Source of the DNA: Rhizobium terrae
Lineage (GTDB): Bacteria > Pseudomonadota > Alphaproteobacteria > Rhizobiales > Rhizobiaceae
Reading direction: 5' to 3'
DNA: 64,000 bases
NCBI RefSeq assembly: GCF_003425685.1
Contig: NZ_QJKM01000005.1
Span: 124,001-188,000 of the forward strand
Each line of letters begins with the position of its first letter. Positions within the stretch are counted from its first letter, which is position 1. Of this stretch, positions 5,100-23,233 are shown in pieces. A program made the translations under genes and the position numbers. The notes under the pieces were generated by a model, which saw only the letters and a program-made list of their open reading frames with translations, was not told where the DNA came from and did not search any database.

Positions 5100-5110
5100 G
5101 GAGAGGTGTA

Positions 5111-6151: not shown

Positions 6152-6153
6152 GC

Positions 6154-6906
6154 ATGGATGTAAGGCGAAGAAGCGAGGATGATTTACGAAGGAAGATCGC
6201 CGAGCTTGGCCCCTGGTTTCACAACCTCGAGATCGGCGGTGTGCAGACGGCTCCGGAGCATTTTCTCGGCGATTACCCCAGGTTCAAGTGGGAAGGGTTC
6301 AAACACGTCATCCCGGGCGACCTGCAGGGGTGCAGCGTGCTCGACGTCGGCTGCAATGCCGGCTTTTACGCACTGGAGATGAAACGACGGAATGCAGGCC
6401 GGGTGGTGGGCATCGATACTGACGCCCGCTATCTGCGGCAGGCGCAATTCGTTGCGGCGGAAACCGGGTTGAATATGGAATTCAAGCAGATGTCCGTCTA
6501 TGACGTCGGCAAGCTGAATGAAAAGTTCGATCTCGTCATCTTCATGGGGGTACTCTATCACCTGCGTCATCCGCTCTTGGCGCTTGATCTGCTTTACGAG
6601 CAGGTCGTCGGGGACCGCATGCTCTTCCAATGCCTGCAGCGGGGTGACGAGCGAATTCCCGATCTTCAGGAGGACTACGATTTTTCGGAATGGTCGGTCT
6701 TCGACCGGCCGGACTATCCGAAACTCTTCTTCGTCAAGGAACGATATGCCGGGGACCCGACGAACTGGTTCATCCCCAACAAGCCGGCCGTCGAGGCCAT
6801 GCTAAGCAGTTCGGGCTTCGTCATCGAAGCCAATCCGGAACGGGAGGTCTATCTCTGCCGGAGGGGCGAGCGGCACTATGCGGTAGAGCCGCCTCCAGGC
6901 TCCTGA
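6154..6906 (+). CDS. SAM-dependent methyltransferase, TIGR04290/CmoB-like
   Basis: A roughly 250-residue class I methyltransferase. SVLDVGCNAGFYALEMKRRNA is motif I (SAM-binding glycine loop), followed by VVGIDTD (acidic ribose-binding residue) and FDLVIFMGVLYHLRHPLLALD. The N-terminal GPWFHNLEIGGVQTAP and the LYHLRHP block are typical of the TIGR04290 family, related to DUF1698/CmoB. A GTG at 6148 is also open, but ATG 6154 has AGGAG (6142-6146) at proper spacing and is preferred. Placed at the end of the glycan operon, it more likely methylates a sugar than a tRNA. No terminator is obvious in the 112 bases that follow. Confidence 0.8.
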   Translation: MDVRRRSEDDLRRKIAELGPWFHNLEIGGVQTAPEHFLGDYPRFKWEGFKHVIPGDLQGCSVLDVGCNAGFYALEMKRRNAGRVVGIDTDARYLRQAQFVAAETGLNMEFKQMSVYDVGKLNEKFDLVIFMGVLYHLRHPLLALDLLYEQVVGDRMLFQCLQRGDERIPDLQEDYDFSEWSVFDRPDYPKLFFVKERYAGDPTNWFIPNKPAVEAMLSSSGFVIEANPEREVYLCRRGERHYAVEPPPGS

Positions 6907-7018: not shown

Positions 7019-7933
7019 TCAACTGGCGGGCGGTCGAAGACCCATTAGCGAACAGGCGTTGAGCGAGGTCATTCGCCGCGTTTCTTCGCGCGTGAAACCG
7101 CTGTCGAGGCACAGTTTGATGACCGAGCGAAAGCCCTCCACCGGGCGCGGATTGATCGGCTGTCCGAGGTCGGAGCCGAGGATGGTGCGGTCCAAGCCGC
7201 CGGCTTCCACATAGTCGTGCAGTTCCTCGGCGGTGAACTGTCGGGAGGGACAGTCGATGAGCATACAGGCGCAATGTTCGAGATGGACATCCATCGACGC
7301 GAGTTCTCGCAGGTCGGCGAGATCGGCATCGATCCAGAAGGTCGGGTGCGACACCAGCATGCGCCTGACCCCGCGTTTTTTCGCCTCCGTGAACAGCGGG
7401 TACATTTCGCTGACATGCAGATGGCCGCCGCAGAGCACTGCGTCGTGTTCTGCGATCAGATCGATGATTTCCTTGACCTCGTCGCGGAGGATGCCGTTGA
7501 CTGTCAGCACGCTGAGACCTTCCGGCGGCAGCATTCCAAGCTTGCCGGCCAGATCGTAATAATGAGCGATCCGGAGGTGGTTGGAAGAGGAGAGCGTCGG
7601 CATCCAGACCAGCCGCGCACCCATTCCGAGGCCCACCTTGACGGCTCTCGGGTTGAGGCCGCCGAGCGCATTGTTGAGCGGTACGCCGGAGAGGATTTCC
7701 AGCTCGTTGCCCGCCGGCCGGTGACGCTTGATGAGTTCCAGCACTGGGGTCGCCGAATAGAAATGGTCCTTGATCAGGATTGCATGCATGCCGGCGGCCT
7801 CCGCCTCGGCGATCTCTTCGGCATGGTTGACCTTGCGGCCCATGACCGAGGGGCCACTATGGCAATGGAGGTCCACCGCGCCGCGCAGCAACGCATCGAC
7901 GGCTTGATCATCGTGGGCATGATGGAGCACCAT
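7019..7933 (-). CDS. DUF6282-type metallohydrolase-like protein (paralogue A)
   Basis: A 304-residue protein of the DUF6282 family, a TIM-barrel, amidohydrolase-like group with no assigned reaction. The metal-type motif DLHCHSGP (first strand) is intact, followed by IKDHFYS, LSGVPLNNALGGLNP, GGHLHVSEMYPLF, SHPTFWID and LGSDLGQPINPRPVEGF; histidines and aspartates sit at the strand ends where amidohydrolases bind metal. It is transcribed away from the TTT transporter operon, and the shared intergenic region holds a TTTCA-N5-TGAAA site 94 bases upstream of this start. It is very similar in motif order to paralogue C at 19242. The substrate is unknown. Confidence 0.8.
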   Translation of the reverse strand: MVLHHAHDDQAVDALLRGAVDLHCHSGPSVMGRKVNHAEEIAEAEAAGMHAILIKDHFYSATPVLELIKRHRPAGNELEILSGVPLNNALGGLNPRAVKVGLGMGARLVWMPTLSSSNHLRIAHYYDLAGKLGMLPPEGLSVLTVNGILRDEVKEIIDLIAEHDAVLCGGHLHVSEMYPLFTEAKKRGVRRMLVSHPTFWIDADLADLRELASMDVHLEHCACMLIDCPSRQFTAEELHDYVEAGGLDRTILGSDLGQPINPRPVEGFRSVIKLCLDSGFTREETRRMTSLNACSLMGLRPPAS

Positions 7934-8026
7934 CGGCCGAAACCCTTGCGCGACTGTTGAAGCGATGACTGGCAGCTTCCAAGCTGTGGGGGAGGCGCCT
8001 CGGCGTCCACGGGGTGCGGTATCCTA

Positions 8027-8041
8027 TTTCAATGGTTGAAA
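8027..8041. promoter_or_regulatory. Putative IclR operator, site 1
   Basis: The palindrome TTTCA-ATGGT-TGAAA lies almost midway between the divergent starts at 7933 and 8145. The same 15-bp pattern occurs at 13545, 14953 and 17408, always between genes of this cluster. The TTGAAA in the right half resembles a -35 hexamer. Binding by the IclR protein encoded at 15068 is inferred. Confidence 0.7.
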
Positions 8042-8144
8042 CAGATGCCCCGCCGCAATAGCCGAGGCCGTGCTTTTGTTTATGATCCGTTGCCACCGGG
8101 ACAAGAAGCTATAAGCGCCACCCCCGGATCGAGGGAGGAGAAAA

Positions 8145-9125
8145 ATGTGCAAGTTACTGACATCCATCGGTATTGCTCTGCTGGCGTTCACGGGGGTGAG
8201 CGCGACGAGCAGTACTGGCCTTGCGGGAGAATGGCCGAAGGACAAGCCGATCACTCTGGTTCACGCATTCGCGGCAGGCAGCGATTATCTGGCGCGCCTG
8301 GTTGCCGCCGCCCTGGAAAAGGGCGTCGGCCAGACCGTCATCGTCGAAAACAAGCCGGGTGCGGGCGGCGCGATCGGCACGGGTTACGTGGCACGCCAGA
8401 AACCGGATGGTTATACGCTGGTGACGGCATATCCAGGGCCGGCGGCCAATTTTACCAATACGATGCCCGGTTTGCCCTACAAGCCTCTCGAGGATTTCGA
8501 GCATATCATCCAGTTTTCGGTCGGCGACATGGTGCTGGTGGCCCGCAAGGACTTCCCCGCGAACAATCTCAGCGAGCTGATCGCCTACGCCAAGGAAAAT
8601 CCTTCGCAGGTGAGTGCGGGCAACAACGGCATCGGTTCCTATGGCCACATGATCGAGACCGCGATCATGGACATGGCCGATATCGACATCAAGCTCGTCA
8701 GCTACAAGGGTAGCCCGCCGATCGTGACCGACATGCTGTCGGCGAGCCTGGATCTCTCGGTGGACTATCTCGGCGACGCCTATATCAAGCATATCGAGAC
8801 GGGCAGCCTCAAGCCGCTCGCCGTGATCTCTGCCCAGCGTGCGAAAATCCTGCCGAACGTACCAACTTTGAAGGAGGCAGGGCTAGACCTTGTCGCCGTG
8901 CCGTGGGGCGGCGTCATGGCGCCCAAGGGCACGCCTCCGGCGATCGTCAAGAAAATCAACCAGGTGCTCACCGAGTATCTGAGGTCGGAAGAGGCGATCA
9001 AGAAGTTCGCCGTGGCAGGGCAGGTCGCCGCGCCGACCACGCCGGAGGAGTTCCACAAGATCGTGGTGGACGAGGAAGCACTCTGGCGGGGCATTATCGC
9101 CAAATACAAGATCCGGAGCGAATAG
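8145..9125 (+). CDS. tctC: TTT transporter periplasmic binding protein (TctC/Bug family)
   Basis: A 326-residue extracytoplasmic solute receptor. Residues 1-27 form a Sec signal peptide ending near GLAGEW. The Bug family signature VIVENKPGAGGAIGTGYVAR, followed by QKPDGYTL, is clear, and the C-terminal PTTPEEFHKIVVDE is also typical. A strong GGGAGGAG site precedes the ATG at 8145. It should capture a carboxylate anion in the periplasm and deliver it to TctB/TctA encoded at 11482 and 11975. The binding-protein gene is separated from its permease genes by three enzyme genes, which links the transported compound to those enzymes. The ligand cannot be deduced. Confidence 0.9.
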   Translation: MCKLLTSIGIALLAFTGVSATSSTGLAGEWPKDKPITLVHAFAAGSDYLARLVAAALEKGVGQTVIVENKPGAGGAIGTGYVARQKPDGYTLVTAYPGPAANFTNTMPGLPYKPLEDFEHIIQFSVGDMVLVARKDFPANNLSELIAYAKENPSQVSAGNNGIGSYGHMIETAIMDMADIDIKLVSYKGSPPIVTDMLSASLDLSVDYLGDAYIKHIETGSLKPLAVISAQRAKILPNVPTLKEAGLDLVAVPWGGVMAPKGTPPAIVKKINQVLTEYLRSEEAIKKFAVAGQVAAPTTPEEFHKIVVDEEALWRGIIAKYKIRSE

Positions 9126-9194
9126 GCCGGCGGCTGCTCCGCGAACGGGCAGCCGCCATGTCGGCAAATTCCAGATAATCCGGGAGCATATCCG

Positions 9195-10121
9195 ATGTCG
9201 ATTGACGTCCTTGCCCGATCGCATGGGCCTGCCGATCCGCTCGTCGGCTGGCTTTCCGGATCGGTCGACATGGCCTGTGATCTTGAGGGGTTGTCGCACC
9301 GGGCAACCGGTCTCGACGCGATCGAGATCGCGGGCCAGGCCCAGGAACTGGGGATGAGGGCCATCGTGCTGCAGGCCCATGATTATTGCACTGCGCCGAT
9401 GGCAGCCTATCTGGCCGATGCGGATTTCAAGAGTGCATCCATGATCTTGCATGGCAGCGTCACGCTGAATACGACAGTCGGCGGCCTCAACGTCTACGCA
9501 GCCGAGCATACGCTCATGCTTTCGGGCAAGGTCGTTCACATGCCGACGCTTTCGGCAGAGAACTTCCTCAGGAGGAAGCGCTGGCCGGCGCGTCCGCGGG
9601 CCGGTCTCGATGCAGGAGGGCCTGCTCTCAGCGTGGTGGATGCCCGCGGCAAGGTCCTGCCCCAGCTAAAGGAACTGCTGGAGATCGTGGCGGCGAGGGA
9701 CGGCGTGCTGGGGGCGGGTTTTCTGCATGCCAGCGAAGTGCTGGCACTCTTCGAACAGGCGGCTGCCTGCGGCGTGATGAGGCTGCTGGCGGTGGACCCC
9801 ATGCACAACAACGGGGCTCGGCCGGGGGATGTGGATGTCATGCTGGGGCAGGGGGCCTATGTCATGATCTCGGCAGCCAGCCAGGGACGCGACCGCAATC
9901 TGGCTGCCACCCTGGCGGCGACGCATCCCGACCGGCTCATCCTCGGACTGCATTCGGATGGCGAGGCCAACTCCCTTCGCCAACACTACACGGCGGCTCT
10001 GCGAAGCTGGCAGGATTTCGGGCTCGGGGAACTGGAAATCCGGCGGGCGATCGGAGAAAATCCGCGCCGTCTGCTCGATCTGGACAAGCGCGTGAAACAC
10101 GGAGCGCTTCCGCATGGCTGA
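9195..10121 (+). CDS. DUF6282-like protein with degenerate metal motif (paralogue B)
   Basis: A 308-residue homologue of the proteins at 7019 and 19242, recognisable from MILHGSVTLNTTVGGLNVYA, VVHMPTLSAENF and GAGFLHASEVLALF in matching order. The first-strand motif DLHCHSGP of the paralogues is replaced by DMACDLEG, and KDHFY by QAHDYC, so the usual HxH metal ligands are missing. GSDLG becomes LGLHSDGEAN. It may be a catalytically different or regulatory partner of an intact paralogue. GGGAG at 9181-9185 supports the start. The last 8 bases overlap the following amidohydrolase gene. Confidence 0.72.
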   Translation: MSIDVLARSHGPADPLVGWLSGSVDMACDLEGLSHRATGLDAIEIAGQAQELGMRAIVLQAHDYCTAPMAAYLADADFKSASMILHGSVTLNTTVGGLNVYAAEHTLMLSGKVVHMPTLSAENFLRRKRWPARPRAGLDAGGPALSVVDARGKVLPQLKELLEIVAARDGVLGAGFLHASEVLALFEQAAACGVMRLLAVDPMHNNGARPGDVDVMLGQGAYVMISAASQGRDRNLAATLAATHPDRLILGLHSDGEANSLRQHYTAALRSWQDFGLGELEIRRAIGENPRRLLDLDKRVKHGALPHG

Positions 10122-10926
10122 GCCCGGTAACGAACCACCGCTGGTGGACGCGCATTTTCACATCTACACCACCGATCTGCCGCTCTCTGCGAGCGCCTGG
10201 CACAAGCCGCCGGAAGACGCGGGCGTCGAGAAATTGATCGGGCTGCTCGACGCTCACGGTATCGCATTAGGTGTTGTCGCTGCCGCCAGCTTACATGGCG
10301 AATACAATGACCATGTGCGTGGTGCCTTACGCAGACATCGCCGGCTCAGGGCAACCGCAATCGTGTCGCCGTCGATCGGCATATACGAACTGGAGCGAAT
10401 GCGGGACGACGGCTTCGTCGGGATCAGGCTGATGTGGCGGACGCTTGCGGAGGCGCCGGACATCACGTCGCTGGACTATCGTCGGCTGCTGCGGCGGGTC
10501 GCCGATCTCGGCTGGCATGTCCATCTGATCGAACGGGCGGACCGCCTGCCGGTGATGATGCGGGAGATCGAGGCGGCTGGGGCACGCATGGTGATCGATC
10601 ACATGGGCATGCCCGAAGCCGGCAAAGGCGTGGACGATCCGGGTTTTCGCCTGGTCCTCGATGCCATCGACCGGGGCAATACCTGGGTCAAGCTCTCGGC
10701 GGGCTATCGGTTCAAGCCGCTTTCGGCTGCCGTGGACTGCGCACGGGAGCTTATAGAACGGACGAGTGGAGAGCGCCTGGTCTGGGCGAGCGACTGGCCG
10801 TTTGCAGCTTACGAAAATCGCGTCACCTACGGCCAGACCGTGGCGGCGCTTTCCGAATGGGTGCCGGATCCTGCCATGCGGCGACGCATCGGCGGGCGCA
10901 ACGCGCTCGAACTCTATTTCATGTAG
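10114..10926 (+). CDS. Amidohydrolase_2 family TIM-barrel hydrolase / lactonase-like
   Basis: A 270-residue protein of the PF04909 family, which includes 2-pyrone-4,6-dicarboxylate lactonase and decarboxylases acting on ring-cleavage products. Visible motifs are DAHFHIY (D12, H14, H16) on strand 1, IRLMWR, WHVHLIE, VIDHMG (H163) and WASDWPF (D227), all at the expected strand ends for metal binding and catalysis. It overlaps the previous gene by 8 bases, so the two are probably co-translated. It likely hydrolyses a lactone or amide intermediate of the compound brought in by the TTT system. The precise reaction is unknown. Confidence 0.82.
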   Translation: MAEPGNEPPLVDAHFHIYTTDLPLSASAWHKPPEDAGVEKLIGLLDAHGIALGVVAAASLHGEYNDHVRGALRRHRRLRATAIVSPSIGIYELERMRDDGFVGIRLMWRTLAEAPDITSLDYRRLLRRVADLGWHVHLIERADRLPVMMREIEAAGARMVIDHMGMPEAGKGVDDPGFRLVLDAIDRGNTWVKLSAGYRFKPLSAAVDCARELIERTSGERLVWASDWPFAAYENRVTYGQTVAALSEWVPDPAMRRRIGGRNALELYFM

Positions 10927-10939
10927 CGCGGTATCGAAA

Positions 10940-11437
10940 ATGAATGCACTTGCGGAACTGACGGCCAAGGCGGAGATCCTGTCTCTCGTCACCGAATATT
11001 GGAACGAAGTCGATACCAACTGGGGTACGCATGCCCACATGATGTTCACAGAAGACGGCGTATTCGGGTCCGGCCCTTCGGCCTTCGTCGGCCGCGAGCA
11101 GATCAAGGCATTCTACGACTGGCGCCGCGGCCGCGGCGATCGCGTCGCGCGCCATCTCGTCAACAATCCGATGATATTAATCGAGGGCGCGGATCGGGCG
11201 ACGATCAAATATATCATGACCATCTATGCGATCGACGGTCTGCCCGTCCTGCCGGTGAGTGCGCCGAACAGTATTTCGGAGGTCGTCGAAGTGCTGGCGC
11301 GCGATGGGACGGGTGGCTGGAAGATCAGGTCGAAGACTTTCACCCACCTGTTCAAGGGCGAGGAGCCGACGACGACGATGCCGGAGCATCTGCGGAATAC
11401 CCTATTATCAAAAGTAACCCGACCGGACCAAAGTTAG
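10940..11437 (+). CDS. SnoaL/NTF2-like small protein
   Basis: A 165-residue protein with the cone-shaped NTF2-like fold: an N-terminal helix (ELTAKAEILSLVTEYWNEVDT), an HMMFTEDGVFGSGP segment, FVGREQIKAFYDWR and a beta-rich C-terminal half. Members include dehydratases, isomerases, ring-hydroxylating dioxygenase beta subunits and orphan binding proteins. The frame is open upstream to 10766 within the previous gene, but ATG 10940 gives a normal start. It sits inside the TTT operon between the amidohydrolase and tctB, so it probably acts on the same compound. Confidence 0.75.
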   Translation: MNALAELTAKAEILSLVTEYWNEVDTNWGTHAHMMFTEDGVFGSGPSAFVGREQIKAFYDWRRGRGDRVARHLVNNPMILIEGADRATIKYIMTIYAIDGLPVLPVSAPNSISEVVEVLARDGTGGWKIRSKTFTHLFKGEEPTTTMPEHLRNTLLSKVTRPDQS

Positions 11438-11481
11438 TTTCTGCACCAGACAGATCGGATGCCGTTGAGGAGGAAAACAGC

Positions 11482-11967
11482 ATGAGCATCGAGACGAGAC
11501 AGCCCGACCGGCACTCGTTCAGTCGCCGAAACGTCACTTTTGCGGCCATCTTCGTATGTTTCAGCGCTGTGACCGGCATCTATGCCTACAGCACGCTCAG
11601 CATCGGCACTGCGGCCGAGATGGGGGCCGGCTTCTTCCCCGTCATGCTGTCGATCGTGCTGGCCCTGCTGGCTCTGGCGATCGCCTTCACCCCGATTTCG
11701 CCCGGCACCCCGCCGCTTCGCTTTGCCTCCGTCAAGTCGTCCGTTCTGATCATGGGTTCTCCCCTTGTCTTCGCGGCGACGATCCAGTCGCTGGGCCTGG
11801 TGATCGCCGTCGCGCTGACGATCTTCTTCTCCAGCTTTGCCAGCCGCTTCGCCAATCTGCGCCAATCCCTTCTGCTATCTACCGGCTTCACCGTCTTTTG
11901 CGTCGCGGTGTTCCACTTCCTCCTGAACCTGCCAATCCCCCTCTGGGGCGACCTGATCACGGGCTAG
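11482..11967 (+). CDS. tctB: TTT transporter small membrane subunit (TctB)
   Basis: A 161-residue membrane protein with four to five predicted transmembrane stretches (about residues 18-38, 50-68, 83-118 and 128-152). The first hydrophobic helix followed by GAGFFPVMLSIVLALLALAI is the TctB pattern (GPGFFP in many members). A strong GAGGAGG site lies just upstream of the ATG at 11482. The frame continues upstream to 10999 without a suitable start. It is followed 7 bases later by tctA, as in nearly all TTT systems, and serves as the 4-TM accessory subunit in the inner membrane. Confidence 0.88.
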   Translation: MSIETRQPDRHSFSRRNVTFAAIFVCFSAVTGIYAYSTLSIGTAAEMGAGFFPVMLSIVLALLALAIAFTPISPGTPPLRFASVKSSVLIMGSPLVFAATIQSLGLVIAVALTIFFSSFASRFANLRQSLLLSTGFTVFCVAVFHFLLNLPIPLWGDLITG

Positions 11968-11974
11968 AAACGCC

Positions 11975-13486
11975 ATGGACATCTTCGCCAATCTTGCGCT
12001 CGGTTTCGGAGCGGTTCTCGAACCTTCCAATCTGATGTTCTGCTTCATCGGCTGCCTGCTCGGTACTGCCGTCGGCGTTCTGCCGGGCATCGGGCCGCTG
12101 GGCACGATCGCCATCCTGCTGCCGGTGACGTTCGGTTTTGCACCCGAGGCCTCGATGATCATGCTGGCCGGCATCTATTATGGTGCCCAATACGGCGGTT
12201 CGACTACGGCGATCCTGATCAACCTGCCCGGCGAGGCGACTTCCGCGGTGACCGCGATCGACGGTTACCAGATGGCGCGCCAGGGCAGGGCAGGCGCCGC
12301 ACTCGCCATTGCCGCGCTCGGCTCCTTCTTCGCCGGCTGCGTCGCCACGCTCGTCATCGCACTCTTCGCCAAGCCGCTGACATCGCTCGCCCTCAGCTTT
12401 GGGCCTTCCGACTATTTCGCGCTGATGGTGCTCGGCGTCGTAGCGTCGATCGCGCTGGCGCACGGTTCGGTTCTGAAGGGCCTGGTGATGATCGTGCTGG
12501 GCCTGTTGCTCGGCTGCGTGGGAACCGATGTCTATACCGGCAGCATGCGTCTGACGCTCGGCACGCTCGATCTTGCCGACGGCATTCCGATCATCGCCTT
12601 CGGTTCGGGCGTCTACGCGATCGCCGAGATCCTGCGCGGTCTGGAGGACGAGAAGGAACAGGAGCGGGATGTGCTGACGACGCGCGTGACCGGTCTGATG
12701 CCCACCTGGGCCGACATCAAGGACTCGGCCGGACCGATCCTGCGCGGCACGGGCCTGGGTTCCATCCTTGGAATCCTGCCGGGCGGTGGGGCGATGCTCT
12801 CGTCCTTCACCTCCTATGCGCTGGAGAAGAAGATCTCCCTCCATCCGGAACGCTTCGGGCACGGCGCGATTGCAGGTGTCGCCGGTCCGGAATCGGCCAA
12901 CAATGCCGGTGCCCAGAGCTCCTTCATTCCGATGCTGACGCTCGGCATTCCCTCGAACGCGATCATGGCACTGATGATCGGCGCCTTGATGCTGCAGGGC
13001 GTGGCGCCAGGCCCCAACCTCGTCAACGAGAAGCCGGTTCTGTTCTGGGGCGTGATCGTCTCGATGTGGATCGGCAACCTGATGCTGGTTATCCTCAACC
13101 TGCCGCTTGTCGGGCTCTGGGTGAAGCTGCTCTCGGTTCGCAATCATCTCTTGTTCCCGGCCATCATCGGTTTCTCGGCGATCGGCGTCTACAGCGTCGG
13201 CAACAATCCGTTCGACCTTGTGGTGATGGCGGTGTTCGGCGTGGTCGGCTACGGGCTCACCAAGCTCGATTGCGAACCTGCGCCATTGCTGCTCGGGTTC
13301 GTCCTAGGGCCAATGCTCGAAGAGTACCTGCGCCGCGCCATGCTGCTGGCGGATGGCAATCCGCTGGCCTTCTTTCATCGGCCGATCACCGCGGGCTTGC
13401 TGACAGTCGCGGCGATAACGCTGTTCGCCGTGCTGTTTCCGGCAATCCGAAATCGTCGCAAGGTGGTGTTTGCCGAGGACGACTGA
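11975..13486 (+). CDS. tctA: TTT transporter large membrane subunit (TctA)
   Basis: A 503-residue inner-membrane transporter with about 11-12 transmembrane segments. Diagnostic TctA blocks are PGIGPLGTIAILLP in the first third, GGSTTAILINLPGEATSA, and GPESANNAGAQSSFIPMLTLGIP in the second half, the two pseudo-repeats that form the substrate site. Length is normal for the family (about 500). It drives ion-coupled uptake of the ligand handed over by the TctC protein. It ends the first transcription unit; the next intergenic region (13487-13718) carries another TTTCA-N5-TGAAA site. Confidence 0.93.
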   Translation: MDIFANLALGFGAVLEPSNLMFCFIGCLLGTAVGVLPGIGPLGTIAILLPVTFGFAPEASMIMLAGIYYGAQYGGSTTAILINLPGEATSAVTAIDGYQMARQGRAGAALAIAALGSFFAGCVATLVIALFAKPLTSLALSFGPSDYFALMVLGVVASIALAHGSVLKGLVMIVLGLLLGCVGTDVYTGSMRLTLGTLDLADGIPIIAFGSGVYAIAEILRGLEDEKEQERDVLTTRVTGLMPTWADIKDSAGPILRGTGLGSILGILPGGGAMLSSFTSYALEKKISLHPERFGHGAIAGVAGPESANNAGAQSSFIPMLTLGIPSNAIMALMIGALMLQGVAPGPNLVNEKPVLFWGVIVSMWIGNLMLVILNLPLVGLWVKLLSVRNHLLFPAIIGFSAIGVYSVGNNPFDLVVMAVFGVVGYGLTKLDCEPAPLLLGFVLGPMLEEYLRRAMLLADGNPLAFFHRPITAGLLTVAAITLFAVLFPAIRNRRKVVFAEDD

Positions 13487-13544
13487 AGCTCGCGGGAGCG
13501 ATCGCGGATAGGCGGTCCGCCTGCGGTCGGCGGCATTGCCTTTG

Positions 13545-13559
13545 TTTCATGCATTGAAA
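13545..13559. promoter_or_regulatory. Putative IclR operator, site 2
   Basis: TTTCA-TGCAT-TGAAA, flanked by T on the right, lies in the 232-base gap between tctA and the MFS gene, about 160 bases before the MFS start at 13719. It implies that the carrier has its own promoter under the same control as the TTT operon. Confidence 0.68.
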
Positions 13560-13718
13560 TCGTCGGGCGCCGAAGGTGGACCGTCTATCATCCGGCGCTC
13601 TAACTGGTTGGGGATCGGAGAGGCGTTCCGCGGGCGCCTGTCGGTTCATCATCCATCCCGATGTTCACAGGTGAAGCTTGCGACGCGTGTTCAGTCTCCA
13701 TCTCCGCCGGCCGTGCCC

Positions 13719-14939
13719 ATGAGCATGGCCAAGGTTCGGCGCTACAATCCGCTGCTTGCCCTGAAGGACCTGCACTATCGCCGCTTCGCCATCGGCAGTA
13801 TCGTCTCGGTGCTCGGCATGTGGATGCAGAAGATCGGCGTTGCGTGGCTTGCCTGGGAACTCAGCAGGTCGCCTTTCTGGCTCGGATTGATCGCTGCCGC
13901 CGACATGCTGCCGTCGATCTTCCTCAGCAGCTTCGCCGGCTCGCTTGCCGACGCGCATGACAAGATCAAGGTGCTGCGGTCGGCTCAGTTTGTCGCCATC
14001 CTGCAGTCCGTCGTGCTCGCGCTCCTGTCGTGGTTGGGACTGACCTCCGTCGAAGTGCTGTTCGGCTTGACGCTGATTCTGGGGGTCTCCAGCAGCCTGG
14101 AGCAGCCGGCGCGGTTGTCGCTGATCCGGGAGATCGTGCCGCCAGACTATCTGCATGCCGCAGTCGCGCTCAATGCGCTGAGCTTCAACCTGGCCCGATT
14201 CGTCGGACCGATCATTGCGGGCGTCCTGATCAGCGAGGTCAACGTCGGCGTCACCTTTGCGGCGAGCGCCGTGGCGATCGCCTTCTTCTCCTATGCGCTT
14301 GCGGTGATCCGGGTGCAGAAGGGCACAGATCGGTCGGTTGACGCCGTTCATGGGTCAGGGACCGCCGACGGTTTCCGTTATGTGCTGGGTCACCGAAGCC
14401 TGCTCGCCACGCTGGGGTTGATGGGGGCGACCGGCATCAGCGTCAACGGGATCCTGCAGATGTTGCCGGCCGTCTCCGATGCCCTGTTCGCGAAAGGCAT
14501 AGACGGGTTTGTCGGATTGATGGCGGCCTCCGCGCTTGGCTCGGTCGTATCCGGCACCATAACTCTCTGGCGGCCGCCGAGCACGCGCGGTGCGCTCAGC
14601 ATCGCGCTTGCCGCGCTTTGCTCCACGGTCTCCCTCGCGGTGCTCGCGCTGACACCCAGCTTCCACTTGGCGCTCATCGCGATCTTCTGCATGTCGTTTG
14701 CCAACATGTATGCGGGGATCGCCGGACAGGCCCTGCTGCAGCTCGAAAGCGAACCCGGCAAGCTGGGGCGGGTGATGGGCATCTACAGCATGATCATTCG
14801 CGGCGGACCGGCGGTTGGCAGCTTCCTGATCGGAACGGCGGCCACATTCGTGGGCATGGTTGCGCCCGTGATCGCTGTCTCTGCGCTCGCCGCCTGTTAT
14901 GCCGGCGTCATTGCTCTCGCCTTTCTCCGGGCTCATTGA
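13719..14939 (+). CDS. MFS transporter (MFS_3 / enterobactin exporter-like)
   Basis: A 406-residue inner-membrane carrier with about 11-12 hydrophobic helices. The segment LADAHDKIKVLR after helix 2 is the MFS loop 2-3 motif in a variant form, and SSLEQPARLSLIREIVPPDYLHAAVALN is typical of the MFS_3 subgroup (PF05977), many of which are exporters. The frame is open back to 13536, but ATG 13719 (or 13725) leads directly into YNPLLALKDLHYRRF, the usual N-terminus. The upstream palindrome suggests it belongs to the IclR-controlled regulon, perhaps for efflux of an intermediate. Confidence 0.8.
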   Translation: MSMAKVRRYNPLLALKDLHYRRFAIGSIVSVLGMWMQKIGVAWLAWELSRSPFWLGLIAAADMLPSIFLSSFAGSLADAHDKIKVLRSAQFVAILQSVVLALLSWLGLTSVEVLFGLTLILGVSSSLEQPARLSLIREIVPPDYLHAAVALNALSFNLARFVGPIIAGVLISEVNVGVTFAASAVAIAFFSYALAVIRVQKGTDRSVDAVHGSGTADGFRYVLGHRSLLATLGLMGATGISVNGILQMLPAVSDALFAKGIDGFVGLMAASALGSVVSGTITLWRPPSTRGALSIALAALCSTVSLAVLALTPSFHLALIAIFCMSFANMYAGIAGQALLQLESEPGKLGRVMGIYSMIIRGGPAVGSFLIGTAATFVGMVAPVIAVSALAACYAGVIALAFLRAH

Positions 14940-14952
14940 AGCCGGACCGGCA

Positions 14953-14967
14953 TTTCATTCCTTGAAA
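14953..14967. promoter_or_regulatory. Putative IclR operator, site 3 (autoregulatory)
   Basis: TTTCA-TTCCT-TGAAA, within a perfect outer ATTTCA...TGAAAT, lies 101 bases upstream of the IclR gene start at 15068, the usual position for autoregulation. The TTGAAA half followed by GCATAG at 14986-14991 could be a weak promoter. Confidence 0.72.
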
Positions 14968-15067
14968 TGAAAAAAGAAGCCGCTGGCATAGCTGCCCCTC
15001 CCGGACTACCTTTCGTTCGGGCATCGGTTGGGAGACCGATGCAGAGGAATTCTGGGAGGAGTTCTGA

Positions 15068-15952
15068 ATGTTGGAAAGCGAGTTGAAGGAGAGACCGGCC
15101 AAATCTCCCCAGCTACCGAAATATAACGATCTTCATTGTAGGGCGAATTCATTGCGTGGCAGCGTCGACGAACACAAGGCCTCCTATGCCCCCGTCGAGT
15201 CCGCGCGCCGGGTTCTGCTGTTGTTGCAGGCGCTCAATGCGCAACGTATCGCCACCATCGGTTCGCTGCATCAGGTGACGGGGCTTTCCAAGCCGACCAT
15301 CGTGCGGATGCTCGAAACGCTGATCAGCGAAGGATATGTGGTGCGCGACAATTTCGTCGGCGGTTACAGCGTTACCTCCAAGGTCGTTTCGCTGGCCTCC
15401 GGCTTCACCGGTGCGCCGCTCTTGATCGAGGCGGCGCGATCGCGGGCCGTTGCCCTGACCAACGATATCAAATGGCCGGTAAGCCTTGGAACGCTGAGGG
15501 ACGGCCATATTCTGGTCAGCTTCACGACGGCGCCGATCAGCCCCTGGGCCTATCCGTTCCCCGTGTTGCACCGTTTCCTCGACCTGGAGCTGACGGCGAT
15601 GGGGCAGTGTTATCTGACTTTCTGCGACGATGAGGAGCGTGCCCTGCTTCTCAACGCGCTGACCCAGCAGCGCCGCGAACAGGGCAGGCCTTTCGATGCC
15701 GCGCGCGTGCTGCGGGACCTGCGGACGACCCGCAAACGCGGCTATGCAAGGGTGGGAGGACCGCGGAGGGTTTTTGACTTCGTGGCTGTTCCGATCCTTG
15801 ACGGGCAGCGCTGCTCGGCCTGCATGGGGGTCGGCTTCTACCGCACGGCTGTTCCGCCGGATCGCATTCTGGAAACCGTGGTTCAGCCCATGATCGAGGC
15901 GGCGTCCGCCATCCAGGTGGATATGCGCAGCCTGAACAGCACCGGCTACTAA
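15068..15952 (+). CDS. IclR family transcriptional regulator
   Basis: A 294-residue regulator. Residues about 44-95 form the IclR winged helix-turn-helix (SARRVLLLLQALN, then TGLSKPTIVRMLETLISEGYV), and residues about 100-285 the effector-binding GAF-like domain, with LELTAMGQCYLTF and the C-terminal FVAVPILDG. The N-terminus is about 35 residues longer than usual, but a strong GGGAGGAG site 7 bases before ATG 15068 supports this start. It lies in the middle of the catabolic cluster and is preceded by a TTTCA-N5-TGAAA palindrome found three more times in the cluster. It probably senses the substrate or an intermediate. Confidence 0.9.
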   Translation: MLESELKERPAKSPQLPKYNDLHCRANSLRGSVDEHKASYAPVESARRVLLLLQALNAQRIATIGSLHQVTGLSKPTIVRMLETLISEGYVVRDNFVGGYSVTSKVVSLASGFTGAPLLIEAARSRAVALTNDIKWPVSLGTLRDGHILVSFTTAPISPWAYPFPVLHRFLDLELTAMGQCYLTFCDDEERALLLNALTQQRREQGRPFDAARVLRDLRTTRKRGYARVGGPRRVFDFVAVPILDGQRCSACMGVGFYRTAVPPDRILETVVQPMIEAASAIQVDMRSLNSTGY

Positions 15953-16042
15953 GCGACATTCAACCGATATCCGTCGAACATTGCTCGATCAGGGGCAGGT
16001 CCGGCCATGGCCACCGCGCCGCCAACCCAAGGAGAGATCCCA

Positions 16043-16924
16043 ATGAAACGCAGGGTGATACTGACATGTGCCGTCACCGGCGGCAGCGCGCTGTCCAAGA
16101 ACAGCCAATACGTGCCCATCACACCGGAACAGATCGCCAACGAGGCGATAGCGGCTGCGAAAGCCGGTGCCGCATCGGTGCATATCCATGTCCGCGACCC
16201 GCAGACCGGCGCTCCCTCGATGCAGTTCGAACTTTATGAAGACGTGATGCGGCGCATCCGCGCGTCCGGGGTGGATTTCATCGTCAACCTGACCGCCGGC
16301 CCGGGCGCGGGTTACGCGCCGACCCTGGACGAGACGGCGGTGCCGCCGGTCCGCTCGCCGAGCGTTCGCACCGACCATGTGTCGCGCCTGCGTCCCGATA
16401 TCTGCACGTTGGACGTAGCAACCATGAATTTCGGCGATCGGGCCATCGTCAACACGCCGCCGCATCTGATCGCCATGGCGAAGACCATCCAGGCGGCCGG
16501 CGTGAAGCCGGAACTCGAGGTGTTCGACATCGGCCATGTCGGTGTCGCGATGCGGCTTCTGGAGGCAGGGCATCTGCCGAAACCGCCGTTCTTCCAATTC
16601 TGCCTCGGCATTCCGGGCGGGGCTCCGGCCACGACCGAAGCGATGCTGCTGATGCGCTCGCTCATTCCGCCGGGCACACCATGGTCGGCCTTCGGCATTT
16701 CCCGGTTCCAGATGCCGATGGTCGCCCAGTCGGTCATCCTCGGCGGGCATTGCCGCGTCGGACTGGAGGACAATCTCTATCTGGAGTACGGTGTCTTGTC
16801 CGAGGGCAACGTGCCGCTGGTCCGGCGCGCGGTGGAAATCATCAGGGCACTCGGTGCGGAGCCCGCGACACCGGCCGAAGCCCGCGAGATCCTGTCGCTG
16901 GAAGCGACAAGGGCGGCTGCCTGA
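16043..16924 (+). CDS. BKACE / DUF849 beta-keto acid cleavage enzyme
   Basis: A 293-residue enzyme of the family that includes 3-keto-5-aminohexanoate cleavage enzyme (Kce). Such enzymes condense a beta-keto acid with acetyl-CoA, releasing acetoacetate and a new acyl-CoA. The zinc ligands lie in VHIHVRDP (H47, H49), followed by FIVNLTAGPG and VEIIRALGAEPATPAEAREIL at the C-terminus. The start at 16043 has AAGGAGAG at 16029-16036; a start at 16007 would add 12 residues with no support. Its stop overlaps the thioesterase start (TGATG), so the acyl-CoA product may be passed to that enzyme. Confidence 0.9.
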   Translation: MKRRVILTCAVTGGSALSKNSQYVPITPEQIANEAIAAAKAGAASVHIHVRDPQTGAPSMQFELYEDVMRRIRASGVDFIVNLTAGPGAGYAPTLDETAVPPVRSPSVRTDHVSRLRPDICTLDVATMNFGDRAIVNTPPHLIAMAKTIQAAGVKPELEVFDIGHVGVAMRLLEAGHLPKPPFFQFCLGIPGGAPATTEAMLLMRSLIPPGTPWSAFGISRFQMPMVAQSVILGGHCRVGLEDNLYLEYGVLSEGNVPLVRRAVEIIRALGAEPATPAEAREILSLEATRAAA

Positions 16925-17388
16925 TGAACGATCTCAATCCGGTTTCCGAAGCGGTGTTCGATCCGGCCGCTGCGGGTTGGACCAAACGCCGCTCCAATCC
17001 CTTTTCCGAGCTGATCGGCCCGTTCTGGCAAAAACATGAGGGCAATCAGTTCCTTCTGGGGCTGCTGTGCACGCCGAACACGCTCAACAATGCGGGTGTG
17101 ATGCACGGAGGCTGCCTTGCCACCTTCTGCGACCAGGCGCTCGGAGGCACGCTATTCGAGACGCTGTCGCGCGCCCAGGGGCCGGATGCGCCGCCCGTCC
17201 AGTCGGTCACGGTGCAACTCAACGTCCAGTTCCTAGCGGCGGTGCGGCCGTTGGATTTTCTGATCGGCCGGTGCCGCATCACCCGGCGGACGCGCATGCT
17301 GGTGTTTCTGGATGGGCTTGCGGAAGTGGGTGGCGAGGCGGTTGCATCGCTGCAGGCCGTGTTCAAGCTGGTCAAGCCGCTGGGCTAA
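16924..17388 (+). CDS. Hotdog-fold acyl-CoA thioesterase (PaaI type)
   Basis: A 154-residue hotdog thioesterase. The central-helix motif NAGVMHGGCLATFCDQALGG carries HGG (H61-G63) and the catalytic-type aspartate D70 seen in PaaI-like enzymes, followed by the strands SVTVQLNVQFL and DFLIGRCRITRRTRMLVFLDG. It overlaps the preceding BKACE gene by one base. It probably releases a free acid from the CoA ester made by that enzyme. It ends 20 bases before the fourth palindromic site. Confidence 0.85.
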   Translation: MNDLNPVSEAVFDPAAAGWTKRRSNPFSELIGPFWQKHEGNQFLLGLLCTPNTLNNAGVMHGGCLATFCDQALGGTLFETLSRAQGPDAPPVQSVTVQLNVQFLAAVRPLDFLIGRCRITRRTRMLVFLDGLAEVGGEAVASLQAVFKLVKPLG

Positions 17389-17407
17389 GTAGGCCTTTGG
17401 ACTTGTA

Positions 17408-17422
17408 TTTCAGTCATTGAAA
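17408..17422. promoter_or_regulatory. Putative IclR operator, site 4
   Basis: TTTCA-GTCAT-TGAAA with A and T flanks lies 80 bases before the aldolase start at 17502, in the gap after the thioesterase gene. It would start a third forward transcription unit (aldolase, cupin, DUF6282 paralogue C). Confidence 0.7.
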
Positions 17423-17501
17423 TGTCGCCACGCCGACCCTCGCCCAATGCCGCCAAACGCCGCAGAGTGGCAGAAACCAAGCGGCATCGGGGAGGAAAAG
17501 A

Positions 17502-18269
17502 ATGCCACGGACAGAGTTTACGGCGCGCTTCAAGGCGCGTCAGCAACTGCTCGGCACATTCGTCAAGACACCCACCAGCTATGCCTCGGAAATCCTCGGC
17601 GGCGCAGGGTTCGATTTCGTCGTCATCGATGAAGAGCACGCGCCGATCGATCGTTTCGCGACCGACCAGATCCTGCTGGGATGCCGGGCGAACGACATTG
17701 CCGGTCTCGTCCGGGTGCCCTCGTCGGCTCCGAGCGCCATCCAATCGGTGCTGGATTGCGGCGCGAGCGGAGTGCTGGTTCCGCATCTCGCCTCCGTCGA
17801 GATCGCCCGCGCCGTGGTAGCCGCGAGCCGGTATCGCGGCGGTGCCCGCGGCTTTTCCAATTCGCCGCGCGCCGGCGGTTATGGCGCCACCGGCATGTGG
17901 GCCCATATCGAGGCCCAGGATCGCGATGTCGCGGTACTCGCGATGATCGAGGATAAAGAAGCGATCGACGTCATCGAAGACATCGTGACCGTCGAGGGGC
18001 TCGACGGGATTTTCATCGGCCGCGGGGACCTGACGGTTTCACTCGGCGCCAAGTCCGCCGGCGAACCGGTGGTCAAGGATGCGGTCTCCCGCATCATGGC
18101 AGCTGCCCGCAAAGTCGGCAAACCCATCTGCATCATGGTCGGTTCGGTCGATGAAATAGGGCCGTTCCGCGCGGATGGTGCAAGCGCCTTCATCGTCTCG
18201 TCCGATCAGGCTCTTCTGCGTGCCAGCGCCAATCGCACCCGCGCCGAATTCAGTGCCGCGGTAAACTGA
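17502..18269 (+). CDS. HpcH/HpaI-type class II aldolase
   Basis: A 255-residue aldolase of the HpcH/HpaI/YfaU family, which cleaves 4-hydroxy-2-oxo acids into pyruvate and an aldehyde with a divalent metal. The early block FDFVVIDEEHAPID (D43-H46) carries the catalytic/acid region, RVPSSAPSAIQSVLDCGASGVLVPH the phosphate-like loop and metal-binding area, and FIGRGDLTVSLG the C-terminal glycine-aspartate motif. GGGGAGG sits just before the ATG. It would perform a carbon-carbon cleavage step in the cluster's pathway. Confidence 0.9.
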   Translation: MPRTEFTARFKARQQLLGTFVKTPTSYASEILGGAGFDFVVIDEEHAPIDRFATDQILLGCRANDIAGLVRVPSSAPSAIQSVLDCGASGVLVPHLASVEIARAVVAASRYRGGARGFSNSPRAGGYGATGMWAHIEAQDRDVAVLAMIEDKEAIDVIEDIVTVEGLDGIFIGRGDLTVSLGAKSAGEPVVKDAVSRIMAAARKVGKPICIMVGSVDEIGPFRADGASAFIVSSDQALLRASANRTRAEFSAAVN

Positions 18270-18292
18270 AACGATCACCTCAGGATACGAAC

Positions 18293-19207
18293 ATGTACGC
18301 AGCAAACGACCCACGGGCGGTGCTCAATACTGCGACGGCCCGCAACAATCCTGCTCCCACGGCCTACAAGGGCGCGGAATATGCCCGCTTCTACGACGCC
18401 CCGCCTCAGGAAGTGGTTGACGGCAGCGAGACCTATTATGCGCGAGGCCAGAACCTTGTTGTGGCGCATACCAGGGGTAAAGCCGGCCTCGTGCTTTCCC
18501 GGGTGAACCAACTCGACGAATATATGGTTCTGCTTCCCAATAGGGACACATCGGTGGACGTGCGCTGGAATGGTCAGAGCATCACGGCCGACGGCTATTG
18601 CATCGTCGTCGTGCCGCCAGGCGACAGCGAGGTGCATCTGAAAGGCGACGGCGAGGTGATCCGGCTAATCACCACCCGCGCCGAAGACCTCGTTGCCAAG
18701 TGCTCGAATGCGGGCTCCTATCTCAGCTCCGATCCGAACGTGCCGCCGTTTCAGGCCTGGCCCGATCCGGTCGGCGGCCATAAGCTGCGGCATTACAGCC
18801 TGGACGTTCCGCCGGAGCCCGGCCGATTCGGGATCATTTTCCGCTGCTCGACGATCATGGTGAACTTCCTGCCCGGCAGCGGTCCGCGTGATATCACCAA
18901 GATGTCGCCGCACTTCCATGACGATTTCGAACAATATTCGCTCTGTGTCGCGGGCTCCTACATCCACTACTTGCGCTGGCCGTGGATCAGCGATCTCAAT
19001 GCGTGGCGACCTGACGATGCCGAACTCTGTGCGGCTCCTTCCGTTGCGGTCATTCCACCGCCGGCCATCCATACCTCCCGGTCCATGGACCCGGTGAAGA
19101 ACGTGCTTGTCGACATATTCAGCCCGCCGCGGGCTGATTTTTCGGCAAAGCCCGGCTGGGTACTGAATGCAGACGAATATCCCGCGCCAGACAATATCGC
19201 GCGATGA
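18293..19207 (+). CDS. Cupin-domain protein of unknown function
   Basis: A 304-residue protein that appears to have two beta-sandwich halves. The second half contains the cupin metal motif PHFHDDFEQYSLCV (H207, H209, E213 as likely ligands) and a distal histidine in PPPAIHTSRS (H260). The first half (RGQNLVVAHTRG to RLITTRAED) is cupin-like but lacks the histidines, a bicupin arrangement. Such proteins include dioxygenases and sugar or keto-acid isomerases. It follows the aldolase by 23 bases and precedes DUF6282 paralogue C, so it is probably an enzyme of the same pathway. I do not recognise a named family. Confidence 0.7.
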   Translation: MYAANDPRAVLNTATARNNPAPTAYKGAEYARFYDAPPQEVVDGSETYYARGQNLVVAHTRGKAGLVLSRVNQLDEYMVLLPNRDTSVDVRWNGQSITADGYCIVVVPPGDSEVHLKGDGEVIRLITTRAEDLVAKCSNAGSYLSSDPNVPPFQAWPDPVGGHKLRHYSLDVPPEPGRFGIIFRCSTIMVNFLPGSGPRDITKMSPHFHDDFEQYSLCVAGSYIHYLRWPWISDLNAWRPDDAELCAAPSVAVIPPPAIHTSRSMDPVKNVLVDIFSPPRADFSAKPGWVLNADEYPAPDNIAR

Positions 19208-19241
19208 ACCAGACAAATCAGCCCTGATGGGAGTGACACAC

Positions 19242-20156
19242 ATGACCGAAGCTTCATCCGCCACCGCCGATCGCAAAGCCGAAATCGCGGATCTCCTCGT
19301 TGGTGCCGTTGACCTGCATTGCCATAGCGGGCCGGCCGTCTTCCCGCGCCTGCTCGATCATTATGAGGCGATGAAGGAGGCGTCCGACGCCGGCTTCTCC
19401 GCACTCGTCTACAAGGATCATTTCTATCCCGGTATGGCGCATGCCAAGCTGCTCGAGACGCTTTATCCGGATACCGGCGTGCGCCTCTATTCGGGCGTGG
19501 CACTCAACAACGCCAGCGGCGGCATCAACCCGCATGCGGTCGACCATGCCGTCAAGCTCGGCGGCAAGATCGTCTGGATGCCGACATTCGCGGCTGCGAA
19601 CCACATCGACAAGAGCGCCAACGAGACGAAGAACTATCCCAAAAGCGTTAATCCGATGCTGCCGCCCATTCCGCTCACCGTGCTCGACGATAACGGTAAG
19701 CTGACCAAGGAGACCAACGAGGTGATCGACGTCGTCGCAGCCGGCGACATAATCCTCGCCAGCGGGCACCTTTCGGTGGATGAGCTGAAAGTGCTGTATC
19801 CCGAAGCCAAACGGCGCGGAGTGAAGAAGATGATGATCAATCATCCCACTTATGTCATCGGCTGCTCGGACGACGATATCCGGGAATTGAGCCGGCTCGG
19901 CGTCTACATGGAACATTCGATCTGCATGTTCATCCCGAACGAGCGCGGCCCCTCCAAATGGGATGCCGCGGAATTACGCCGCCTCGTGGACCTTGCCGGG
20001 GTCGAGATGACGATATTTGGCTCCGATCTCGGCCTCGTAAAGATGCCGCGCCCGGTCGAGGGGTATCGTGCCATCGTCAACGACCTGCTCGACCTGCAAA
20101 TGCCCAAATCCGATATCCGTAAGCTGGTGGGTACCAATGCGGCGGGCCTACTTTAA
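19242..20156 (+). CDS. DUF6282-type metallohydrolase-like protein (paralogue C)
   Basis: A 304-residue protein, equal in length to paralogue A at 7019 and with the same intact motifs: DLHCHSGP, YKDHFYPG, YSGVALNNASGGINP, ASGHLSVDELKVLY, NHPTYVIG and FGSDLGLVKMPRPVEGY. The frame is open from 19167, inside the preceding gene, but ATG 19242 has GGGAG at 19229-19233 and is preferred. It differs from paralogue A in a 20-residue insertion-like stretch around HIDKSANETKNYPKS. It is the last gene of the third IclR-site unit. The reaction is unknown; hydrolysis or decarboxylation is the likeliest guess from the fold. Confidence 0.8.
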   Translation: MTEASSATADRKAEIADLLVGAVDLHCHSGPAVFPRLLDHYEAMKEASDAGFSALVYKDHFYPGMAHAKLLETLYPDTGVRLYSGVALNNASGGINPHAVDHAVKLGGKIVWMPTFAAANHIDKSANETKNYPKSVNPMLPPIPLTVLDDNGKLTKETNEVIDVVAAGDIILASGHLSVDELKVLYPEAKRRGVKKMMINHPTYVIGCSDDDIRELSRLGVYMEHSICMFIPNERGPSKWDAAELRRLVDLAGVEMTIFGSDLGLVKMPRPVEGYRAIVNDLLDLQMPKSDIRKLVGTNAAGLL

Positions 20157-21944: not shown

Positions 21945-21965
21945 GCTCTTCTCCCTAAATGACCG

Positions 21966-23135: not shown

Positions 23136-23174
23136 ACGTTCCTCGATATGCTTTCAAATAACTCGAGTTGAGCA

Positions 23175-23184: not shown

Positions 23185-23233
23185 CTTGCGGATGTTTCTA
23201 TGGTGAAGTGGGTGTCGGATCAAGAGGGTTTCA

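Follow-up and report, generated by a model that had tools for sequence, protein, structure and literature searches.

The stretch of DNA studied here, called the window below, comprises 64,000 nucleotides of Rhizobium terrae (G000:C45:124001-188000, from a genome of 6.97 Mb in 78 contigs), and between positions 7019 and 20156 it harbours a cluster of fourteen intact genes, A to N, with the appearance of a catabolic locus. None of the fourteen reading frames contains an internal stop codon, and in all of them the GC content is higher at the third than at the second codon position. A preliminary description of the window had counted thirteen genes under one apparent regulator. All gene types named there are present (three DUF6282 genes, TctABC, Amidohydro_2, SnoaL_4, IclR, a beta-keto acid cleavage enzyme (BKACE), 4HBT, HpcH_HpaI and a cupin); the MFS_3 transporter gene H (13719-14939) had been overlooked. 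The genes are:

7019..7933, minus strand: gene A, DUF6282 protein, HxH/H/H/D residues intact, divergent, accessory (Pfam DUF6282, 224 bits)
8145..9125, plus strand: gene B, TctC solute-binding receptor (Pfam TctC, 184.5 bits)
9195..10121, plus strand: gene C, degenerate DUF6282 protein which has lost all five expected metal ligands (Pfam DUF6282, 138.4 bits)
10114..10926, plus strand: gene D, Amidohydro_2 protein, LigI-like, from the neighbourhood of 2-pyrone-4,6-dicarboxylate hydrolase (Pfam; phmmer to 2ffi and 4d8l)
10940..11437, plus strand: gene E, SnoaL_4/NTF2-like protein (Pfam SnoaL_4, 51.5 bits)
11482..11967, plus strand: gene F, TctB small permease (Pfam TctB, 60.2 bits)
11975..13486, plus strand: gene G, TctA large permease (Pfam TctA, 510.9 bits)
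13719..14939, plus strand: gene H, MFS transporter (Pfam MFS_3, 147 bits)
15068..15952, plus strand: gene I, IclR regulator (Pfam; best NCBIfam matches are PRK09834 models, below cut-off)
16043..16924, plus strand: gene J, BKACE/DUF849 protein (PF05853, 316.6 bits), zinc ligands kept, Phe for the catalytic Tyr, long loop
16924..17388, plus strand: gene K, 4HBT hotdog thioesterase (Pfam 4HBT, 39.8 bits)
17502..18269, plus strand: gene L, HpcH/HpaI-type aldolase, core partner of M (Pfam, 102.1 bits)
18293..19207, plus strand: gene M, orphan two-domain cupin of 304 aa, core gene (AlphaFold model and Foldseek)
19242..20156, plus strand: gene N, DUF6282 protein with intact residues, adjoining L and M (Pfam, 243.3 bits)

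The genes J and K overlap by 1 bp and C and D by 8 bp, while L and M are separated by 23 bp, M and N by 34 bp, and H is flanked by gaps of 232 and 128 bp. Gene A is divergent at a spacing of 211 bp from B and is therefore not on the same transcript as the other genes. TctA, TctB and TctC (genes G, F and B) all score above the Pfam gathering scores, and a catabolic-looking locus with a carboxylate importer is supported.

Neighbouring genes were counted in two sets of loci. A genome scan with N gave 69 DUF6282-anchored loci, which together with two further loci of the own genome make 71; because a first grouping of the neighbour genes of the 69 loci under-counts, the counts for the 71 loci were redone by tblastn. 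A second search used the M alignment A1 and thus avoided anchoring on DUF6282. It comprises 32 M copies from 28 genomes, with neighbours counted within 10 kb and the window included. Three of these copies are from the genome of the window itself, and eight were contributed by a family outside the class, which was chosen because the genome G822 carries M. Two of the loci (G064, G1009) are shorter than 3 kb and two (G961, G935) only about 9-10 kb long, so that absences there mean little.

The most constant partner of M is an HpcH-type aldolase like L, which is found near 27 of the 32 copies. DUF6282 lies near 20 (20 of the 24 class, order and phylum copies, none of the eight copies from the family sample), followed by TctC (17), an I-like IclR regulator (15) and BKACE (6). 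Rare neighbours are D (4), E (3), an extradiol dioxygenase (2), a CoA-transferase (1) and K (1). Of the 71 DUF6282 loci, 44 have an L-like aldolase by the recount, 37 have M, 28 a J-like BKACE and 17 TctC. That its genes co-occur in other genomes was the check which the preliminary description had set. DUF6282, the aldolase and the cupin are indeed found together there, frequently with TctC and sometimes with BKACE, but the centre shifts to the M-L pair; DUF6282 was rejected as the defining gene, because the aldolase accompanies M more often.

In the order sample M occurs in 10 of 150 genomes, DUF6282 in 25 and both in 10 (Fisher p 2.8e-9), and in the class sample the numbers are 6, 18 and 5 of 385 (p 7e-7); the genomes are related and two of them (G000 and G189) belong to both samples, so these p values are indicative only. 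M was further found in 10 of the 349 genomes of the phylum sample and in 8 of 200 genomes of the family outside the class. A control search for DUF6282 gave no match in 14 well-known genomes. We conclude that the gene set is a genuine, recurrent, catabolic-looking assembly.

Larger parts of the block are also conserved. On two plasmids of N. galegae (L138, L139) B and D to N stand in the same order, with B directly followed by D. A and C are absent from this block, N is the sole DUF6282 gene in the 32.9 kb stretch, and further DUF6282 copies are located elsewhere on the plasmids. The loci L008-L010 show the same order from a cut B onward as far as they reach, Martelella (L033) also keeps much of the block, and in Pseudooceanicola (L012) the genes A to E and H to N are found within 21 kb. 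In a Roseomonas locus TctC, DUF6282, L, D, M, E and BKACE occur together. Five of 25 Bacillota loci (L050, L051, L053, L060, L067) also combine L, M and DUF6282, with an aldolase that is 26-33% identical. The transporters vary: besides the tripartite tricarboxylate type there are tripartite ATP-independent periplasmic (DctP, DctM) and MFS transporters as well as ATP-binding cassette transporters with a Peripla_BP_6 receptor. Even the own genome has three M-DUF6282 loci on three contigs (the window, L006, L007) with different transporters, namely TctABC, a second TctA/TctC set and a Peripla_BP_6-type ATP-binding cassette system.

The cupin M has no Pfam match even at E=10. Its AlphaFold model (mean predicted local distance difference test score, pLDDT, 89.7) matches two-domain cupins in Foldseek with E values down to 4e-10. 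Eleven residues are invariant in 114 of 114 M rows (H207, H209, Q214, H260, N191, R228, W231, T261, D274, R280, E76) and E213 is kept in 105; the residue alignments of M, of BKACE and of the aldolase and DUF6282 proteins include overlapping loci, so some genes are counted twice. M shows a pattern that is also seen in the KdgF chain, namely HxH(x)4Q, a His further on and D[IL]FSP towards the C-terminus: the C-terminal domain shares PHxHxxxxQ with KdgF, and D[IL]FSP with KdgF and 4e2g. There is no significant sequence match to KdgF (E 0.95, or E 26 when the aligned domain is taken by itself). In seven Bacillota loci that have DUF6282 and aldolase and lack M, a single-domain cupin of 112-133 aa is encoded instead, and a profile made from six of these seven proteins and one Agrobacterium protein aligns to the C-terminal domain of M (hhalign probability 92.2%, E 5.8e-7). 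KdgF opens unsaturated uronate rings (PMC11381880). On weak evidence the C-terminal domain of M looks more like a ring-opening cupin of the KdgF type than like an oxygenase, a role which had been suggested for it and for which we found no support.

Two further observations concern M. In Mameliella alba (L161, 9001-9899) M seems to be broken, its annotation showing two open reading frames side by side. The loci L153 (7405-9309) and L160 (8862-11859) contain a fumarase-type hydratase together with a ketopantoate-reductase-like or other NAD(P) oxidoreductase, L160 also a flavin reductase.

The partner L is well conserved in the positions of HpcH/HpaI class II pyruvate aldolases: E150 and D176 are present in 71 of 71 rows, H46 and R71 in 70. 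These positions correspond to the metal-binding Glu and Asp, the His base and the Arg of such enzymes, and the pyruvate-type aldolase step of the preliminary description is well grounded. The NCBIfam models with the highest scores for L are those of 2-dehydro-3-deoxyglucarate aldolase (144.8 and 142.9 bits, both short of the cut-off), and L fails the equivalog cut-offs for both HpaI (140.2 of 368.8 bits) and GarL (142.9 of 406.75 bits). Residue 148 of the aldolase (Met versus Gln or His) was considered as a marker of M and discarded, since 29 of the 91 rows of aldolases near M have Gln there. The amidohydrolase D aligns to LigI (4d8l) with E 1.8e-25 and reaches 96 bits with the SlmHylase model, the cut-off of which is 500 bits.

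Of the three DUF6282 proteins, N was modelled with a pLDDT of 94.2 and has an amidohydrolase-like fold. The best Foldseek matches are 2i5g and M19 dipeptidases (E 7.5e-9, TM 0.64), and further ones are phosphotriesterase-like lactonases, cog3618 and AibH1H2. Five residues, H25, H27, H175, H200 and D261 in the numbering of N, are kept in 42 of 43 aligned DUF6282 proteins; we take these HxH, H, H and D residues, the predicted ligands, to fit the metal-ligand pattern and strand order of amidohydrolases. The exception is C, which carries A25, D27, F175, D200 and H261 at these positions. The idea of three equivalent DUF6282 hydrolases was rejected because of the lost ligands of C, and A and C, both missing from the N. 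galegae block, are accessory genes.

A forms one clade with copies from L012 and G767 (support 100/99). C groups with degenerate copies of the same two (98/93), where long branches make the grouping less sure. The residues of the degenerate L012 and G767 copies were read by eye from alignments, and all three copies still match DUF6282. In three genomes a degenerate copy (window 9195-10121, L012 1509-2474, L132 17826-18740) shares its cluster with an intact A-type copy. AibH1H2 is a two-subunit enzyme, and it is a natural guess that C may form a heteromer with A in a similar way.

What DUF6282 proteins do is suggested by their position in other genomes. In ten Bacillota loci (10 of the 69 DUF6282-anchored loci) the DUF6282 gene is directly followed by genes of a PIG-L cluster and an RraA cluster, families which were named from their L062 members. 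The PIG-L protein of the Paenibacillus locus L062 resembles GalB, which is 4-oxalomesaconate hydratase (5cgz E 7e-44, the next match 3e-8); it was the one PIG-L protein compared with solved structures. The L062 aldolase passes the cut-off of the 4-carboxy-4-hydroxy-2-oxoadipate (CHA) aldolase family NF006731. So does the aldolase of Thermus, where the order DUF6282, hydratase, aldolase is the same and the neighbours are of catechol 2,3-dioxygenase (C23O), Rieske and DUF1932 type. Directly before a GalB-like hydratase and a CHA aldolase, DUF6282 would occupy, judged by position, the place of LigI in the protocatechuate 4,5-route.

The Bacillota and Thermus clusters (L062 5768-15576, L055, L086 6324-10990) contain a C23O-type dioxygenase, DUF6282, a GalB-like or PIG-L hydratase, a CHA aldolase and a DUF1932-type dehydrogenase, some also Rieske genes, and are a possible meta-cleavage route with DUF6282 as lactonase. 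DUF6282 is also present on haloarchaeal plasmids; in one of them (L085, 6086-16662) it is flanked by genes for a BenE-type transporter and a PaaI thioesterase, and genes of the AMP-binding and xanthine dehydrogenase types are near. The term DUF6282 does not occur in the 5.39 million Creative Commons-licensed papers searched.

The BKACE protein J scores far above the Pfam gathering score (316.6 versus 24.8 bits) and fails the cut-off of all four NCBIfam BKACE models it matched. BKACE enzymes have the zinc ligands His, His and Glu and a catalytic Tyr, which is Tyr145 in CCaKce and Tyr173 in PdKce (PMC12871164). The ligands H47, H49 and E242 are present in 35 of 35 BKACE rows including J. At the position of the Tyr, the 34 homologue rows from M and DUF6282 loci (in which L002 and L006 are one gene) have Phe in 14 and Tyr in 20, and J has Phe. 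The loop after strand 3 comprises 35-40 residues in J and in 11 of the 14 rows with Phe; the remaining three have 20-21 residues, and the rows with Tyr have 22. The nearest solved structure to J is BsfD (E 4.7e-81), which has Phe166 at the Tyr position and is described to transfer acetyl to carbon rather than to cleave (PMC12871164). The entry 3C6C, named 'Kce', also has Phe there. Two Tyr-type BKACEs, those of L018 and L140, were tested against the 3,5-dioxohexanoate family NF053538 and pass its cut-off, while J fails. Therefore acetoacetate cannot be assumed as a product, as had been done, and J as a proven canonical acetoacetate-forming BKACE was rejected.

That J builds rather than cleaves, acylating a beta-keto acid with loss of CO2 so that the locus makes a 1,3-diketone intermediate, is very improbable in our view: the Phe and the long loop are common to J and BsfD, but J has Gly where BsfD has Arg91 (alignment read by eye), comparable M clusters have Tyr-type BKACEs, the 'Kce' entry 3C6C shares the Phe, and the setting looks catabolic. 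A beta-keto acid intermediate is suggested by a CoA-transferase gene after L-M-N in Microvirga and by genes for both CoA-transferase subunits and a thiolase after M in G935. As BKACE converts malonate semialdehyde to formyl-CoA and acetoacetate in vitro (PMC11961710), J and K could remove that aldehyde, which is speculation.

In some loci with M and the aldolase but no DUF6282 in the stretch there are extradiol genes, namely in two R. opacus strains, Pseudosulfitobacter, Sphingopyxis, G822 and G961. R. opacus 9 has BphC (over cut-off), an alpha/beta hydrolase, an NTF2 protein, M and the aldolase; the kit of R. opacus G13 is similar and includes a vicinal oxygen chelate (VOC) protein 60% like that of Pseudosulfitobacter. 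The Pseudosulfitobacter stretch encodes a 4-hydroxyphenylacetate (HPA) 3-hydroxylase (NF045920, over cut-off), a flavin reductase, the VOC protein, NTF2, an alpha/beta hydrolase, BKACE and M, with the aldolase about 7 kb from M. The gene order is LigB-M-L in Sphingopyxis, M-L-LigB in G961 and Rieske-TctC-M-BphC-like-L in G822. On plasmids 32 records match the extradiol VOC protein, and the only close one apart from its source is R. opacus G13 (60%).

Three flanking genes were scanned on either side of the block, and all six belong to other families. Downstream (20667-24082) lie a TIGR01976 cysteine desulfurase-like gene (over cut-off), a class I/II aminotransferase and an alpha/beta hydrolase gene, and upstream (3984-6906) a glycan-related glycosyltransferase, an epimerase and a TIGR04290 methyltransferase gene. 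The flanking genes O, P and Q and the methyltransferase were not found by query in the 32.9 kb around the N. galegae block on the two plasmids, and O, P and Q, the aminotransferase and esterase genes, were rejected as cluster members. Glycan-related genes (GH28, O-antigen ligase, polysaccharide export proteins) are also found far downstream, at 47688-60743.

From the genes, their conservation, their association and their residues, all of which were computed, we infer a substrate type, the chemistry of M and DUF6282, an order of steps and a direction for J. We tentatively favour the reading as a catabolic locus under IclR control which serves an organic acid imported by TctABC, with a recurrent module of a hydrolase (DUF6282 or LigI-like), the cupin M and the aldolase L. 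The imported acid is probably ring-shaped. TctC would deliver a cyclic carboxylate, for example a pyrone or lactone acid, the ring of which would be hydrolysed by N (or by A or D). M, as a metal cupin with a KdgF-like site, might then linearise, tautomerise or hydrate the ring-opened enol acid to a 4-hydroxy-2-oxo acid, which L would cleave into pyruvate and an oxo acid. J with acetyl-CoA could handle the resulting beta-keto acid, and K would hydrolyse the acyl-CoA. The order of the steps remains a proposal.

Several results weigh against this reading. Family scans detected no ring-cleaving oxygenase among the cluster genes of the window. D, E, BKACE and K seldom accompany M, as counted above. 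Five of the 32 M copies have no aldolase nearby (G244, G388, G716, one G930 copy and one own-genome copy) and 12 have no DUF6282, four of the loci being short. J has Phe in place of the catalytic Tyr. The profile matches of M to solved cupins are marginal (4e2g E 0.013, KdgF 5fq0 E 0.95, besides 3lwc E 0.34 and a tyrosine phosphatase E 0.71), and a separate fumarase-type hydratase is encoded in at least two of the M clusters, so that the hydratase role need not fall to M. On an A. tumefaciens plasmid M stands without L next to two genes of the mandelate racemase/muconate lactonizing enzyme (MR/MLE, enolase-superfamily) type, an aldehyde dehydrogenase gene and an RraA-type gene, and these enolase-superfamily neighbours suggest sugar acids.

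The locus could alternatively serve a sugar-acid pathway, with D as a sugar-acid lactonase, M as a KdgF/KduI-like uronate ring-opener or isomerase, L as an aldolase of the GarL or 2-keto-3-deoxygluconate type, J cleaving a 3-keto sugar acid and K freeing the acid. The A. tumefaciens plasmid fits this, as do the KdgF-like stretches of M and the best NCBIfam matches of L, and for P. simiae, with mutant phenotypes described, a BKACE is the proposed enzyme of ketodeoxyribonate cleavage (PMC6365646). On the other side, L reaches nearly as high a score with HpaI, M recurs with extradiol dioxygenases or Rieske oxygenases, and the fourteen genes include no family of sugar kinases or sugar dehydrogenases. 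We regard this explanation as unlikely.

A lower half of an aromatic meta-cleavage pathway, with the ring-cleavage genes elsewhere in the genome and with D and DUF6282 as side-chain or lactone hydrolases for by-products, appears less probable still. The Pseudosulfitobacter stretch with its HPA 3-hydroxylase, VOC dioxygenase, BKACE, aldolase and M and the BphC of R. opacus speak for it, and so do the best models of the regulator I, PRK09834, which are of the MhpR type and were matched below cut-off. Yet no dioxygenase was found with five queries within 10 kb of 30 of the 32 M copies (one of the two matches being a query's own locus), and DUF6282 lies near 20 of them instead.

To a similarly small degree we believe in a patchwork, in which L-M-N is a unit of its own, while A/C, D/E/TctABC and J/K each arose independently of it and were joined by chance or plasmid exchange. 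This would explain the lack of A and C in N. galegae and the rarity of D, E, J and K near M, but not so easily that B and D to N keep their order on two N. galegae plasmids, that L008-L010 are alike from the cut B, that Pseudooceanicola holds twelve of the genes (A-E, H-N) within 21 kb, and that the Roseomonas locus combines DUF6282, L and M with TctC, D, E and BKACE.

If the favoured catabolic reading is true, two function-less families, DUF6282 and M, which both recur by catabolic genes in several phyla, receive a testable function, and rhizobia a missing lower pathway for ring-opened acids, possibly plant- or lignin-derived; the GalB/LigK-like and extradiol neighbours hint at concrete candidate substrates. 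It is possible, though doubtful, that DUF6282 is a new family of hydrolases opening pyrone or lactone acids, that M founds a new family of two-domain cupin enzymes which open, tautomerise or hydrate rings for an HpcH aldolase, and that both belong to an undescribed module from ring opening to pyruvate, present in at least Pseudomonadota and Bacillota and fed by DUF6282 or by extradiol dioxygenases, in which C may pair with A. For the module core, no description of the gene set was found in the Creative Commons-licensed literature searched.

The logic of import, hydrolysis, pyruvate aldolase and beta-keto acid disposal is familiar, while two central families have no assigned function. One of the closest known systems is LigI-LigJ/GalB-LigK, the lower protocatechuate 4,5-cleavage pathway of lactonase, hydratase and pyruvate aldolase. 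The cluster would follow the same lactonase-hydratase/isomerase-aldolase logic with different proteins; D belongs to the sequence neighbourhood of LigI, and in other genomes DUF6282 precedes GalB-like and LigK-like genes. In contrast to this pathway there is no dioxygenase, no GalB-type hydratase and no RraA-type CHA aldolase among the fourteen genes, and M and L are of other families.

The extradiol-linked M clusters resemble the gene kits for A-ring cleavage of isoflavones (ifc, Variovorax) and naringenin (fde, Herbaspirillum), but the window cluster has neither an FAD monooxygenase nor a dioxygenase of the glyoxalase type. The extradiol VOC gene, considered as a link to fde/ifc, was searched in 200 genomes of the family of G822, with no match at E 1e-60 (and no positive control). 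In Variovorax two redundant cupins, IfcD1 and IfcD2, consume a hydroxyphenyl-pyranone after an extradiol-type step, with products matching C10H10O3 and C10H10O4 (PMC11069340). By our own formula and arithmetic, going from hydroxyphenyl-pyranone, C11H8O4, to C10H10O3 means addition of water and loss of CO2.

With KdgF cupins M shares PHxHxxxxQ and D[IL]FSP in its C-terminal domain and differs in being a two-domain protein of 304 aa with a marginal profile match. Finally, J belongs with its zinc ligands to PF05853 like the BKACEs described for deoxyribonate catabolism (PMC6365646), the phloroglucinol TAL reaction (PMC10470551) and malonate semialdehyde cleavage (PMC11961710), and is set apart by its Phe for Tyr and by NCBIfam BKACE scores under the cut-off.

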